Shown piece after piece: positions 23,738-35,786 of a stretch of DNA of 64,000 nt. This DNA comes from Aotearoamyces nothofagi (taxonomy: Eukaryota > Ascomycota > Leotiomycetes > Leotiales > Tympanidaceae). Both the position numbers and the translations under genes were made by a program. The stretch is from positions 124,001-188,000 of the forward strand of contig JADDTR010000023.1 of the NCBI GenBank assembly GCA_015345905.1. The letters are read 5' to 3'. The notes below the pieces were generated by a model. It was given only the letters and a program-made list of their open reading frames with translations. It was not told the DNA's origin and searched no databases. How positions within the stretch are numbered: the stretch's first letter is position 1; each line of letters opens with the position of its first letter.

Positions 23738-24075
23738 TACAGCGCCTCATCATTATACTGTACCTAGAAGCTCCATTGAGTGTAAGCTTTGTGGCTAGCT
23801 ACATAAAGAAATCGCTTTGTTTAAATCTCACACGATCGCGAAATCTTGATGCACGGACCACACGATAACTCGTCGCACGGCGCCTCAATACTAGCTACTA
23901 CAAACAATCGTCTATTCATACCTTAATACAGCGCCCCTGCTTCAAACTTTATTGTATATTTGTTGACGAACGATCTCTGTATATTTCTTTTACGACTTCA
24001 TGCCCGACATGGACGATATATGATACCTTTGATGAGGACGATTGGCATGTGAGTGCTACCAAACTACCATATACT
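23738..24075. promoter_or_regulatory. Divergent promoter between NAM2 and the amino-acid transporter gene
   Basis: This 338-base spacer lies between two outward-facing genes. It contains AT-rich stretches (TTTATTGTATATTTG near 23950), but no motif I can name with confidence. A GTG-containing short frame just upstream of 24076 is not needed for the transporter. Confidence 0.5.
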
Positions 24076-25966
24076 ATGTCTCGATACACGCTGCAACCCC
24101 CCTCATTCTATGCTTCGCGCGACTCTTTGGAACTTGCATCTCTTGCGTCATCATCACCAGAGGATGGACACACGTCATCGGATTCAACATCATCACCAGG
24201 GGTGTCTTCCTCACGAAAGCTCTCACTTGAAGCAGAAGACCCCTTAGATGCCAACAACCCTGCCGCAAATGGGCGTCCCGGAGCACGCGACAGATCTTTC
24301 TCCGTGTCGTCTGCATTCGACTATACATCGAATCTGTTCCCTCTTTCATCTTCTGCTGGAAACGGATATGCTCGAATTGGTGAACACATATCAGCCTCTG
24401 GCCCGCATCAAGCTAGGGGGGGAGGCTCGCTGGAGAAGAGCAAGTCCTTGACATATTTGAACGGATTGTCATTAGTCGTAGGGCTTATTATTGGATCCGG
24501 AATCTTTTCTGCTCCTGGTCAAGTCATCGCGAGGGCTGGATCTCCAGGTGCTTCTTTATTAGTGTGGGCAATAGCTGGCATACTGGCTTGGACCGGGGCA
24601 GCGAGTTATGCCGAATTAGGCGGTGCAATACCCTTGAATGGCGGCGCTCAAGTTTATTTGTCGAAGATATTCGGAGAATTGGCAGGGTTTCTTTTCACAT
24701 GGTGCGCAGTGATGGTCCTGAAACCGGGGTCTACTGCGATTATATCGATCATCTTTGGGGAGTATCTGGTGAAGTCTGCCGTTGGTGCGGACGCCGAAAA
24801 TGTCAGCAACTGGATCAACAAAGCTGTTGCTTTAGCTGGCCTTTTTTCTATTACGCTTTTGAATTGCGTCTCTACGAAGCTGGGCACAAGGATGGGTGAC
24901 TTGTTTATGTTCTTCAAATTCATTGCATTGCTAGGTGTTACTGTCATAGGCATTGTTGTTGCGATTACTGGGTATTCTGCATCAGGGGCTGCAAATCGGG
25001 ATTGGAAAGATAATGGCTGGTTTGAAGGGACAAGTACGAGTGTCTCATCATGGGCAATTGCCCTATATTCCGGGTTGTGGGCATTCGATGGATGGGACAA
25101 TGTCAGTTCCCTTAACCATAGCTTGCATGACTTTTACTGACAAATTTCAGACCAACTATGTTGTCGGCGAATTTCGCAACCCAAGTCGAGATCTACCCCG
25201 AGTCATACACACAGCTATGCCTCTGGTAATATTGTCCTATATCATGGCCAACATAGCATACTTTTTTGTATTGCCACTCGATGCCATCAAGTCTACCAAC
25301 ACTGTCGCGGTGTTGTTTGGTGCGGAAGTATTTGGACCTATTGGAACCCTCATACTTGCCCTTATTGTCAGTGCAAGCTGTCTTGGTGCTCTGAATGCGA
25401 CAGCTTTCACAAGTGGTCGATTAGTTTATGCTGCTGGCAAAGAAGGATACCTACCAGAGATATTTGGGAGGATCGGAGTGGGCAATCATGCCGAACCATC
25501 TTTGTCAACTTTGCGAACACGGTCATGGGTATCAAAGCGCTTGGCCCAATTATTCGGTGACGCAGAGACAGGACTCTTCTTCACCCCTGTCAATGCCATG
25601 GTGCTAAACGCCGTCCTAACATCAGTATATGTGGTGGTTGGCGAGTTCAGTACTCTCCTCACATTTTACGGCGTAGCAGGATATACCTTTTACTTCCTTA
25701 CTGTACTTGGACTTATCGTTTTGAGAGTAAGGGAACCAAACCTGGAACGGCCATACAAGACTTGGATCTCGACACCTATTATATTCTGCTGTGTCAGCCT
25801 GTTCCTATTGAGCAGGGCAGTATTTGCTGAGCCTGTGCAGACGTTGATTGTCGTCGGGTTCGTAGTTGCTGGTGTGCCTGTATATTACTGGCGGATAAGT
25901 GGCAGAGACCAAGTACAAAAGCGGGAGGGTCAGGGTACCAAACCTTGGTGGAAGATTTGGGAATAA
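24076..25966 (+). CDS. L-type (APC superfamily) amino-acid transporter, 2 exons
   Basis: The model encodes 613 residues from exons 24076-25101 and 25151-25966, with the 49-base intron spliced in phase (gtcagt donor, ttcag acceptor). The N-terminal 130 residues are Ser-rich, hydrophilic and presumably cytosolic. About twelve membrane segments follow. Transport-site signatures of the LAT branch are visible: the unwound TM1 glycines in LIIGSGIFSAPGQVIARAGS, then WAIALYSGLWAFDGWDN in TM6, and NYVVGEFRNPSRDLPRVI at the TM6-TM7 turn. These match the Y-x-x-E-E/F-x-NP-x-R-x-LP pattern of LAT1-type carriers and methionine permeases. Substrates are probably large neutral amino acids or methionine, inferred from family. 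A polyadenylation-like AATAAA lies at 26026-26031. Confidence 0.9.
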
Positions 25967-26391: not shown

Positions 26392-27512
26392 ATGGGCTCT
26401 CTTACGAGAACCCTCCCAGCTTCTTGGTTCTGCAGTTCCGCACTATATCAGCTTGAGCGTCGTGCTGTTTTCCTCAAAGTAAGTATTCCGTCAAGTTAGG
26501 GTCTAAAACAACTTCTGACGACTTTTAAGTGTTGGCATCTATTGGGGCCAGTCACTCGCTTTCAGGAGAAAGGAGTTGAAGGCAGAGTATCATATGAGAT
26601 TGCGCAGATTAAGTTCTTCGTGGAAAACCAGAGCGCCGATGGGACCGGAATAAATTCTAACGGCATCGTGGTCTATGGAGAGGACAAGGTACCGCTACCT
26701 ACCATTGTATTATGTTCTCTCTGATATCGGCACCCAGTTGAGCAATATCCGAAGCCATCTTACACCCAGTGGATTGCTCTTTGCAGCTCTTTCAGATGAA
26801 GCTCCTAGCTTCGAAGAGTTCTTTGTTGGCCTCGAGTCCCTGCTTAGCAGGGTTGACTTTACCAAGCTTCCGCATCGCAGATCTATCTCTTATGAGGGCA
26901 ATTTCAATTGGAAAACCATGTACGTGTAACTCGACTAGAATATCGCCACATACTGACTATTCCAGGATTGACGGGTACCAAGAATGTCTGCACTGCCAGT
27001 ACACACACCCCACTTTCTCTAAATTCTATCCGCCAACCTTCTATGAAGTGCGTAGCTACAGCAACTTTTCTCAGCACATTGCAGATCCCAGAAAACCAGA
27101 TGACGGTCTCTTTCTGTATTTCTTTCCAATTTGTACATTGAACGTCTACGGCGGAGGTATGTCATCGTTCCGAACCTGTCCTACCTCAAACCCTGGGGTT
27201 TCTCGCATGGAATTCGATTACTACCACCAAGGAACGGATGAAGAGTTTGAGGAGTACTTCAAGTTCGTGAGACAAGTCGCAATAGAGGACTACGAACTGT
27301 GTGAGAAAGCGCAGGCAAATCTAGAGAAGGGAATCTATGGAGAAGGAATCTTGAACCCAAAGAAGGAAAATGGAGTTGCATTTTACCAGCAACGCGTCAG
27401 GCAGATGGTGTATGAGCAACATGCAGTGGAAGTCGAGGCAGCAAAAACGGCGTCGGAGATGGATTCCACTGCAGGTGAGGTCTTGTCTGCTCAGGTTACG
27501 GTGTCATCGTGA
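26392..27512 (+). CDS. Rieske-oxygenase alpha-subunit relative without a [2Fe-2S] site (gene A), 4 exons
   Basis: The model encodes 324 residues from exons 26392-26478, 26530-26688, 26738-26919 and 26966-27512. All four exons join in phase with GT-AG introns of 46-51 bases. The N-terminus follows choline-monooxygenase-like alpha subunits (LPASWFCSSALYQLERRAVF, then WHLLGPVTRF and VSYEIAQIKFFV). Where the C-x-H and C-x-x-H cluster loops should come, it runs directly into GIVVYGEDKLSNIRSHLTPSG. No C-x-H / C-x2-H pair exists anywhere in the protein. The catalytic half is preserved: GNFNWKT, then IDGYQECLHCQYTHP with His152 and His157 as iron ligands, and EDYELCEK with Asp251 as the probable third ligand. 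Typical family members are near 400 residues, so the shortfall is about one cluster-binding domain. It is an intact, open gene and not a 5' truncation. It lies 563 bases upstream of gene B on the same strand. Substrate unknown. Confidence 0.82.
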
Positions 27513-28075
27513 TATAGCGAAGGATTGAAGCAGTATGAGAATATTTAGGCATATCCCAAATTTGGATTGGTTGACTGTCTATATGGATTACAACGCTGCG
27601 ATGCCAACTGGACGCATGGCATGGCGCGTATGCCGGAGATCCAGACGTTGACGTTAGCTATCTTATCTGCAATGCCACACGGCACCACACGCTCCATGGC
27701 AGCACGAATCAGGTGGCATTGGACCCAGCCACCTAATCCGGAATGCCGTCGATGGACCAATCTTCACTCGTGCTGACATTCATCAAGGATCTTGGTGTTC
27801 CTCCCTATCTAGCGATCCACCACCGCCGCCGTCATTTTAGACTCATTCAGGTCAATGCTTCCTTAGTCCAGCGTGCTCAACCACAGACTCATCAACGCCC
27901 AACTGTGTGACATGACCACTGGCAACGCTAACGTACTGGCTAGAGAGTCGTTATCGTGGAATTACTTCACGAGCTCACGTTGACGTATAATTATCGGTAA
28001 GTAAACTTCACGTAGGTGCTAAAGGAACATTCCCTTCGTGTGAAAGCTGGCACGTTTCTTATCTACCTGCTAATC
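27513..28075. other. Spacer between the two Rieske-family genes
   Basis: This 563-base stretch has no recognisable gene. It must hold the 3' UTR of gene A and the promoter of gene B. An in-frame extension upstream of 28076 (from about 28016) exists but adds nothing family-like. Confidence 0.5.
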
Positions 28076-29467
28076 ATGGCGAGCCTTGAATTTTCACTCT
28101 ATTCCATCATCATTACCGTCTTGCTCTTTGCTGCCTACTGGCTCCCTTCAATTTACTCTGTGCTAGTCAAGTTGGTGCCATTACCCACATGGTTTCGGCA
28201 CGATAGTACAGAAATCAAAATCCATCTTCTAGAGGAAGATGTCATATCATCCGATGAAGCAGGAGTGGTCGTTGAGAAAGAATCTCGATTCTCGTCTGCC
28301 TGGTGGACCGATGAACAGACCTATGATCTTGAACGGCGAGCAATATTTAGCAAGGTAAGATGTTGTCTAGGTAGCTGACATCAAGTGGCATAGACTAATA
28401 GCTGAAGTCATGGCATTATGCCACGCATCTTTCCCGCTTAACTAAGCCGGGTGACTACCTAACTCTTTCTATTGCTGGGCTGTCTTTCTTCCTCATCCTT
28501 GGCAAAGACCGTCAGCTTCGTGCCTTTCACAATGTCTGTCGGCACCGCGCGTATGAAGTAACACGTAGAGAGTGCGGATCGACAACCATCTTGGGTTGTA
28601 GGTATCATGGCTGGAGTTATGATACTTTGGGTAGATTGACAAAGGCACCCGAGTTTGACGGCATAGAGGGGTTTGAGAGGGCGAAAAATGGACTATGGGG
28701 CATTCATGTGAGGATAGCCAATCAGGGTTTAGTATTTGTGAATTTTGATGCTGCCAGAGTAGATATGTCAGCAGAGTCGGATTGGAAAGCCATCGAGGCA
28801 GAGACAAAGAAGTTGAAGATATCAGGGTCAGAAAAGGTTGCTCAGTGGAAAATCGACGGAAACTTTAACTGGAAGCTCCCAGGTGAGATCAAGTTTATCT
28901 TTTTATTGCTCTTACTAAGTTGTAAAGTTGGAAGCAATCTGGGAGCTTCAATCATTGCACCGGAGAGTGCGTCTTGGATCTCTTGGCTTGGTTTGGGTAC
29001 ATCGAAAAGACAGAAAAATGTACAGATGCAATTTTCAATGACAACTCGGATATGCAAGCTTCCGATGCAAGGAAGCTGGCTCTCTATCAGACTTTTACCG
29101 CAATCAGCAACCAAAACGTGCATCCAATGTGATCTTTACTCGAAACCATCGAAGAAACCCGTATCATTTGAGTCTTCAATCGAACAACTAAAAGCTAAGC
29201 TCTTAGATGAGATCTATAATCTCGACTTCAAACAACAGCAGTTAATCGAAAACAAGGCCACTCTCTCAGATGGTAGCTCCATTCCAAAATTCTTTACGAA
29301 AAGTCATGTAGCTAAGCCATACAGATGAAGCAGCACAGCAAGATGCTATCCAGGCCACCCTCAGAACTCATCTTAAGCTCGAGTGTCTGGAAGGACGAGA
29401 GATCCAACCGGCAGCACCACAGCAGCAAACACTGTCTGAAGAAGGGAAGGAAGATAATGACTGTTAG
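28076..29467 (+). CDS. Membrane-anchored Rieske [2Fe-2S] protein lacking the mononuclear-iron motif (gene B), 4 exons
   Basis: The model encodes 410 residues from exons 28076-28354, 28408-28882, 28928-29272 and 29334-29467, all in phase. Residues 8-30 form a single membrane segment (YSIIITVLLFAAYWLPSIYSVLV). WWTDEQTYDLERRAIFSK and SWHYATHLSRLTKPGDYL lead into a complete Rieske site: Cys137-Arg-His139 (VCRHRAYEV) and Cys157-x2-His160 (GCRYHGWSY). The oxygenase fold then continues through KIDGNFNWKLP. The expected E-C-x-H-C-x3-H iron motif does not follow; the sequence goes on as VGSNLGASIIAPESASWISW, then ATKTCIQCDLYSKPS and a helical tail (THLKLECLEGREIQPA). The protein can carry a cluster but shows no site for the catalytic iron. 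The last intron (29273-29333) uses gtagct and gaagcag and is the least certain junction. Function unknown; an electron-transfer role is inferred. Confidence 0.8.
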
Positions 29468-34668: not shown

Positions 34669-35786
34669 TCACGGCACTGCCTTACAAACCCCACCCCCGC
34701 TCAATCTCTCCCTCTCCCTCTCCCTCATCTCCTCTTGAATCCTCACCCTCTCGGGAACAATCCTCTCCCTCGGCCTGCTAATCTTCCACCCCCCCAGCCC
34801 CTCAGGCCTCCCTAGCTCTCTCAGCGTCTTCTGCTCCACCAGGCTATACTCGCTGACATCGCTCCTATCAAAGTTAAACGGCTCCCTTAAAGCCACCGGC
34901 GGATTCGTGATGATCCTCGGCTTCCGAAGCAGGTTCTTGGAAGCCGAGTGAAGCATCAGCGGATGCAGCAAGAAGACGTCGCCGACGTCGCCGGCGATCT
35001 CGTGGAAGCTCTCGTCGCGCGTCAGGGACGGGTCTCGGACTAGGCCTTTCCAGAAATCGGATCGGTGCCCCTTTTCGAGTGGGGGCTCGTCCCGGCGCTG
35101 CATCCAGGGTGTTACGCCTTCCGGGTTCTCGTACTGGAATCTCGTTACTACCGGGCTTTTCTCTTGCTCTCTTCTCTCTGCTCTCGCTTTTCCCCAAAAA
35201 AGAATATATAATATATATATATATATATGTGAAAAATAAACGATGATTAAGAATTTGAGAAACTCACTAGATGCTTTGCAACCCACCCCACCCCATCAGT
35301 ACAAACAACCGTGCCACCGCCCCTCTCCTCAATATCACTAAACAACGGGATAACCAGCAGCGCCTGCTCAGGACTATCCAAAAAATGCACAAAGAAATCG
35401 CCGTCCGTGTGCCAATTGTCCAGACGCCTAAAATCCACCACATCCGTCGGGCGGTACTCCTCCCTGCCCAGATTAACAATGAAGCTATCCTTCCAATCCT
35501 TGCTCCAGTCCGCGATCTTCGCCGCCCCGCCGACCAGCTCGCACATCGCGGACCAGGCTTTGGGCGCGAAGATCGACACGGGCGTGCTGCTGTGGGACGG
35601 CATGTGGATCCGTTCGGGACTCCAGGTTGAGGGCGCGCTGGGGGAGAGGCCGAGGCGGGTCCAGAGGGGGGCGGTGAAGGAGGCCGAGGCGGAGCGGCTG
35701 AAGCATTGTGGGATTTTTAGGAAGCCGTGGGTGAGGAAGTGGTCTTTTTGGTCTTGGGAGAGGGGGTGGGGGTATTTAGCAGACAT
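34669..35786 (-). CDS. Phytanoyl-CoA dioxygenase (PhyH) family Fe(II)/2-oxoglutarate oxygenase, 2 exons
   Basis: The model encodes 336 residues, read from 35786-35268 and 35160-34669. The 107-base intron contains a long AT dinucleotide tract (about 35203-35227) and ends at a purine-rich acceptor; both flanks are in phase. The iron-binding HxD is NWHTDGDF (His126, Asp128). The distal His and 2-oxoglutarate-binding Arg fall in FLLHPLMLHSASKNLLRKPRI. A double-stranded beta-helix core is suggested by the strands EQALLVIPLF and GGGTVVCTDGVG. There is no signal or peroxisomal C-terminus; the chain ends GGGVCKAVP after an Arg/Glu-rich helix. Fungal PhyH proteins include fatty-acid alpha-oxidation and secondary-metabolite enzymes, and the substrate here is unknown. 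The ATG chosen is the first in the frame. Confidence 0.88.

Follow-up and report, generated by a model that had tools for sequence, protein, structure and literature searches.

Rieske oxygenases are normally rings of three identical subunits arranged head to tail, in which electrons travel about 12 angstroms, via a bridging carboxylate, from one subunit's cluster to the iron held by the adjacent subunit. Two neighbouring genes of the fungus Aotearoamyces nothofagi, referred to here as A and B, raise the question whether such an enzyme can be divided between two genes. They lie in a stretch of 64,000 nucleotides (contig JADDTR010000023.1, positions 124,001 to 188,000; hereafter the window, whose coordinates are used for both genes) of a 25.5 Mb genome in 55 contigs. 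A first-pass annotation of the window, made from its letters, had described A as a Rieske-oxygenase relative that keeps only the catalytic iron site and B as one that keeps only the cluster, and had proposed that the two form a mixed complex. Here we show that the complementary loss of metal sites between A and B is real. We also consider it somewhat probable that A and B make up a mixed oxygenase, in which the cluster of B would feed the iron of A.

Metal sites kept and lost in genes A and B

Genes A and B follow each other head to tail, both on the + strand, with 563 bp between them. Their features are the following (pLDDT, predicted local distance difference test score; aa, amino acids).

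26392..27512, + strand: gene A, iron-only Rieske-oxygenase relative; 4 exons, 324 aa; PF00848 at 2e-25
26392..26478, + strand: A exon 1, in the spliced frame
26530..26688, + strand: A exon 2, remnant base strands of the Rieske domain, by alignment
26689..26737, + strand: A intron 2, 49 bp, near the site of the cluster-bearing segment of the relatives that is missing in A
26738..26919, + strand: A exon 3, contains GNFNWK
26966..27512, + strand: A exon 4, catalytic domain; AlphaFold pLDDT 83.3; best PDB match CntA 6zgp
26976..27008, + strand: A iron site, Y147-x-E149-C150-x-H152-C153-x3-H157; motif ECLHCQYTH
27285..27290, + strand: A Glu250-Asp251, with the third iron ligand; conservation of the two aligned columns among the 76 relatives 96% and 100%
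28076..29467, + strand: gene B, cluster-only Rieske-oxygenase relative; 4 exons, 413 aa; PF00355 at 2.7e-13
28076..28354, + strand: B exon 1, in the spliced frame
28106..28162, + strand: B residues 11-29, a hydrophobic segment that may be a membrane anchor; highest Kyte-Doolittle mean over 19 residues 1.94
28408..28882, + strand: B exon 2, Rieske domain; AlphaFold pLDDT 89.0; PDB matches biphenyl dioxygenase 1uli and CntA
28537..28608, + strand: B cluster ligands Cys137, His139, Cys157 and His160
28928..29272, + strand: B exon 3, degenerate half of the catalytic domain, weak coding signal
28930..28968, + strand: B residues 253-265, aligned without gaps to the iron motif, functional residues replaced
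29325..29467, + strand: B exon 4

Gene A encodes 324 residues with His152, His157 and probably Asp251, the first-pass annotation had stated, and the spliced frame and the alignment bear this out. These three residues form a complete 2-His-1-carboxylate site in a helix-grip domain, according to the alignment, the PF00848 match and the model of exon 4. The bridging carboxylate is also present: Glu149, the equivalent of CntA E205 by motif, stands in a column with a conservation of 1.0 in the 76 prokaryotic relatives described below. Furthermore, A retains Tyr147 as well as Cys150 and Cys153, a CxxC pair that some Group V oxygenases share; the counterparts of its iron-site residues in CntA are Y203, E205, C206 and C209, with H208 and H213 assigned by counting. 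Pfam finds Ring_hydroxyl_A alone in A (PF00848, 2e-25) and no match to PF00355. This agrees with a scan in which no CxH plus Cx2H pair was present in any forward frame of A or of the 563-bp gap between A and B, so that the claimed absence of a cluster site from A stands. A hidden exon holding the missing motif is ruled out by the same scan and by the lengths of the introns (45-53 bp); intron 2 of A, with its 49 bp, is too short to contain the cluster-bearing segment.

Gene B is complementary to A. Its model gives 413 aa, which corrects the length of 410 residues first given, and its ligands Cys137, His139, Cys157 and His160 were found where they had been placed, both in the spliced frame and in the alignment. 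It was also correctly said to lack the E-C-x-H-C-x3-H motif. At the aligned positions, E is replaced by G, C by A, H by I, C by I and H by S, in frame and at equal length, not deleted, and the aligned iron-ligand positions are I260, S265 and I347. No E/D-x-x-H-x(3-5)-H motif occurs in the forward frames of B, and Pfam, which reports Rieske at 2.7e-13, gives Ring_hydroxyl_A just 12.8 bits (E 0.11), under the cut-off. As had been argued earlier, A and B do not represent a single gene broken in two, since both hold the N-terminal LERRA segment and the GNFNWK segment.

AlphaFold was run on single contiguous exons, with alignments of 53 rows for A and 46 for B, out of 76 prepared in each case. The best match of the A exon 4 model (181 aa, mean pLDDT 83.3) is CntA 6zgp, with an E of 1.9e-5 and a template modelling (TM) score of 0.69 by query length, and the B exon 2 model (158 aa, pLDDT 89.0) matches biphenyl dioxygenase 1uli (E 5e-12) and CntA 6zgp_C (E 7.8e-12). 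The predicted models agree with a catalytic domain in A and an oxygenase Rieske domain in B.

The same division is seen in residue conservation. An alignment scan of genome contigs, using an iron-motif pattern built from 12 aligned sequences with A among them, provided the best 80 of 575 relatives of A, and viral contigs provided one. The cluster motif pair is present in 78 of these 81 relatives, the exceptions being L036 (at a contig edge), L037 (a haloarchaeal iron-only gene) and L087. After dropping L036, L037, L087, L100 and L103, 76 prokaryotic relatives entered the conservation count, in which 35 columns were conserved at a level of >=90%; of these, 13 belong to the Rieske half and 22 to the catalytic half. 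Gene A retains 2 of the 13 conserved Rieske-half columns and 18 of the 22 catalytic-half columns (Fisher p 0.0002); because the relatives were fetched by the iron-motif pattern, the invariance of the iron site among them is partly a selection effect. Gene B retains 12 of the 13 and 7 of the 22, three of these seven being NWK (Fisher p 0.001).

Two observations on individual relatives may be added. The Cupriavidus sequences L052, L056 and L057 have the iron motif ECLHCQTAH, and are the sole relatives with an A-like ECLHCQ among those listed. L087 (2968-3810), on an alphaproteobacterial metagenome contig, encodes a Rieske-less oxygenase of 281 aa whose iron motif is intact; within 3 kb of it no partner carrying both motifs was seen, and it may be an assembly error.

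Within the host genome, A was the sole match to PF00848 in six-frame profile searches carried out exon by exon. PF00355 was matched by B plus one locus on C6 and one on C24, which we take to resemble an apoptosis-inducing-factor-type reductase and the cytochrome bc1 Rieske protein. These profile searches detected no intact Rieske oxygenase elsewhere in the genome, although short exons could escape searches of this kind.

Complementary pairs in haloarchaea

A search of plasmids with A retrieved haloarchaeal proteins of 336 aa in which the iron motif is intact and cluster ligands are absent. In Haloprofundus, Natrinema, Halocatena and Natronococcus, an intact relative of 377 aa is located within about 4 kb of the iron-only gene; in Haloterrigena turkmenica, no intact relative is annotated within 6 kb of it. 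Loci with an iron-only gene beside intact or cluster-only paralogues include L019 (4143-6954), L020, L021, L025 and L037. In a sample of the class Halobacteria (292 genomes), the iron-only form is present in 12 genomes, and all 12 copies are without cluster ligands and with the iron motif. This sample overlaps with a family sample of 125 genomes and a second class sample of 391 genomes, and the union of the three contains 19 iron-only genomes (G001, G023, G057, G088, G131, G133, G165, G182, G193, G249, G265, G273, G320, G327, G328, G329, G332, G336 and G396), plasmid records overlapping with these being counted once.

A cluster-bearing relative is present on the same contig as the iron-only gene in 19 of the 19 genomes, and within about 4 kb of it in 15. 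The partner is intact in 12 genomes and cluster-only in six; in G193 it consists of two pieces at contig ends, one with the cluster motif and the other with the iron motif. The cluster-only genes (G131, G133, G249, G327, G328 and G329; the split pairs are found at L153-L156, L158 and L159) contain CAHR...CPYH and have lost E-C-x-H-C-x3-H. In all six loci the iron-only gene lies 580-738 bp from the cluster-only gene on the same strand, an arrangement that matches that of the fungal genes A and B. Among the loci read, with the iron site read for part of the class-sample rows, there was no cluster-only gene without an iron-only gene.

A divided enzyme predicts that the lost half of each gene is relaxed and the kept half constrained, unlike simple decay. 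The ratios of nonsynonymous to synonymous substitution rates (dN/dS) given here are medians over pairs that share ancestry and are hence non-independent. In the cluster-only genes the ratio is 0.15-0.16 for the Rieske/N part and 0.58 for the catalytic part (15 pairs; slightly different bounds gave 0.16/0.58 and 0.154/0.579). The iron-only genes of the six split loci have a ratio of 0.35 (range 0.14-0.55) for the N part and 0.14 for the catalytic part (15 pairs), and the 12 iron-only genes beside an intact partner have ratios of 0.24 and 0.07, respectively (66 pairs). In intact relatives the Rieske part has values of 0.14-0.20 and the catalytic part has values of 0.06-0.13 (28 pairs each). The lost half is thus strongly relaxed in the cluster-only genes and modestly so in the iron-only genes, with constraint on the kept half maintained in both.

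It is an evenly balanced question, in our view, whether Rieske oxygenases have changed at least twice, in the fungus and in haloarchaea, from a one-gene homotrimer to an obligate two-gene enzyme. The conversion would then consist of complementary metal-site loss between duplicates, one of which would donate electrons while the other does the chemistry, and haloarchaea would preserve its stages: an intact gene alone, an intact gene with an iron-only gene, and a cluster-only gene with an iron-only gene. The fungal and archaeal splits were probably separate in origin, given the distance between them and their different forms of loss.

Two further features of the haloarchaeal loci were observed. 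In G265 and G273, the intact and iron-only copies are identical at 198 of 212 and 207 of 212 catalytic positions, and at 63 of 92 and 59 of 92 N-terminal positions, a pattern as expected from gene conversion of the catalytic half. In five haloarchaea, the intact oxygenase gene is followed by a gene for a Cys/His protein of about 120 aa (L019 5380-5739, L021 5237-5596, L024 6721-7083, L025 4475-4834 and L026 6644-6997), possibly an accessory protein.

Weighing a possible two-gene oxygenase

How might A and B work together? Each working site of a Rieske oxygenase lies between two subunits, and therefore one copy may lose its cluster and another its iron. We infer that duplicated alpha subunits of a Rieske oxygenase may have undergone such complementary loss, which would have given rise to A and B. 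A reductase would reduce the cluster of B, the electron would cross from B to A via Glu149 of A, and the iron held by His152, His157 and Asp251 would activate oxygen on a substrate, perhaps a quaternary amine; the hydrophobic segment of B may tether the complex to a membrane. A mixed ring of three A and B subunits, in either ratio, would have exactly one productive B-to-A contact, because each site of a head-to-tail ring combines one subunit's cluster with the iron of the subunit that follows. This contact is deduced by analogy with the architecture of CntA.

The proposal of a two-gene oxygenase is partly supported, and the archaeal parallel makes it likelier. It is favoured by the presence of the bridging glutamate in A, of the donor half in B, and of haloarchaeal pairs with matching selection. 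The retention of Glu149 by a protein without a cluster would be best explained by a cluster borne by a partner. The degenerate C-terminal half of B would also fit a separate repurposing of the two genes.

Several other points weigh against a divided enzyme. First, as many as 75 of the 76 prokaryotic relatives are as close to A as B is in the second shared segment, and 10 of the 76 are so in the first. In these segments B is thus no nearer to A than some prokaryotic relatives are, and a recent duplication giving A and B is not supported. The LERRA and GNFNWK sequences common to A and B occur in 0 of the 76 relatives, and this sharing fits a common fungal source without proving one. Second, the evidence on conservation and selection comes from prokaryotic relatives, since protein scans of viral contigs with A and B and of genome contigs with A yielded no fungal one, and the structural models are of single chains. 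Third, when A exon 1 and B exon 3 are scored in isolation, their own frame does no better than another, which fits decay too. Finally, the archaeal pairs are evidence by analogy, from genomes of shared ancestry. In 4 of the 19 genomes (G165, G182, G193 and G273) the partner is about 10-15 kb distant, not adjacent, and the N part of the iron-only genes is just modestly relaxed (0.35 and 0.24, versus 0.14-0.20 in intact relatives).

If A and B were repurposed separately, which we regard as possible though rather doubtful, A would be served by another donor (a Rieske-type or plant-type ferredoxin, or peroxide), B would be a membrane-bound Rieske carrier or a regulatory pseudoenzyme, and their adjacency would be a leftover of duplication or due to chance. 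Such an origin would be in line with the heavy divergence of the catalytic half of B, with its 7 of 22 conserved positions including NWK, and with a hydrophobic N-terminus that is present in B and not in A. It sits less easily with the bridging glutamate retained in A, with the archaeal split pairs, and with the position of B directly beside A in a genome where PF00355 gives just two further Rieske loci. There are precedents for other donors: according to excerpts of the published work, CntA is able to use peroxide without a reductase (PMC10952381), and NdmC is a cluster-less subunit served by a Rieske domain borne on a reductase (PMC10380055).

Decay, in which A, B or both would be relics of former oxygenases and the complementary pattern a coincidence, appears improbable. 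The weak coding signal of the two exons mentioned above would fit it, as would the finding of no intact family member in the genome, which is what a lineage losing the pathway would show. However, both genes are open across four exons, and the true frame is the top-scoring one for A and B as a whole, even if the scores (0.043 and 0.026) lie within the 95th-99th percentile of random windows and under most training genes. Moreover, the iron motif of B was swapped in frame at equal length, without insertions or deletions, and the retained site is complete in each gene. Repeat-induced mutation was rejected, its signature being absent from A and B. An artefact, finally, in which a missing exon or collapsed duplicates would mask an intact gene, is very hard to believe: although the gene models rest on a single assembly, with splice boundaries picked by homology and frame and without transcripts, the introns are all GT-AG and of 45-53 bp, no in-frame stop is present, and the missing motif is in no forward frame of A, B or the 563-bp gap.

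Related systems and implications of a proposed divided active site

The nearest functional precedent for the proposed A-B oxygenase is the 7-methylxanthine demethylase NdmC/NdmD/NdmE of Pseudomonas putida CBB5. As described in an excerpt of the source, NdmC has no Rieske domain and receives electrons from the Rieske domain of the NdmD reductase (PMC10380055). In both cases, the catalytic subunit without a Rieske domain would be served by the Rieske domain of another protein. In the demethylase, however, the cluster is on the reductase, whereas here it is on B, a relative of the oxygenase subunit in which the catalytic domain has degenerated; the domains were separated there by another route. 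We rejected an NdmD-like identity for B, since Pfam detects no reductase domain in it.

A second related system is the carnitine monooxygenase CntA. In excerpts of two papers (PMC7948474, PMC10952381), E205 is described as linking one subunit's cluster with the iron of the neighbouring subunit over 12.2 angstroms, with inactive mutants, Y203 as recognising the substrate, and the Cys pair as occurring in some Group V enzymes, which are quaternary-amine oxygenases. Gene A has the equivalents of Y203, E205, C206, H208, C209 and H213, including the Group V trait of a Cys-x-x-Cys beside the iron site (C150 and C153). Its catalytic model matches CntA best, and the Rieske domain of B matches biphenyl dioxygenase and CntA. 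CntA differs, as far as the excerpts describe it, in having both sites in one chain that forms a homotrimer.

The possible ancestors of A and B may be sought among the fungal choline-monooxygenase-like proteins (cd08883), likened here by their description alone. According to an excerpt of one paper (PMC6157903), these are two-domain relatives of plant choline monooxygenase that are biochemically uncharacterised; they differ from A and B in that they are described with both domains in one protein. The haloarchaeal pairs share with A and B the same complementary split between neighbouring paralogues. They differ in being prokaryotic, in having partners that are more alike than A and B, and in that no hydrophobic N-terminus was noticed, though none was measured. 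Some oxygenases combine two kinds of alpha subunit (alpha3-alpha'3), according to an excerpt of PMC12445004. Among the matches listed in searches of the open-access literature, no title or abstract concerned a fungal or haloarchaeal split Rieske oxygenase, and no precedent was found for a division between paralogous alpha subunits by complementary loss.

Two neighbours of the locus, both read by eye, may be noted. An amino-acid permease-like gene (24049-25966, + strand) lies directly upstream of A and is a possible substrate transporter, and frames resembling a phytanoyl-CoA dioxygenase type are found at 34669-35786 on the minus strand.

If the proposal holds, relatives of the Rieske oxygenases that have a single metal site would not necessarily be broken genes, which would call for caution on the part of annotators. 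If A and B do form one enzyme, they would provide a clean natural case in which two genes have come to share an active site located between subunits, and haloarchaea would still carry the intermediate states. The electron path across subunits would then be testable by genetics alone, without any mutant, because the halves would be inactive singly and active together.

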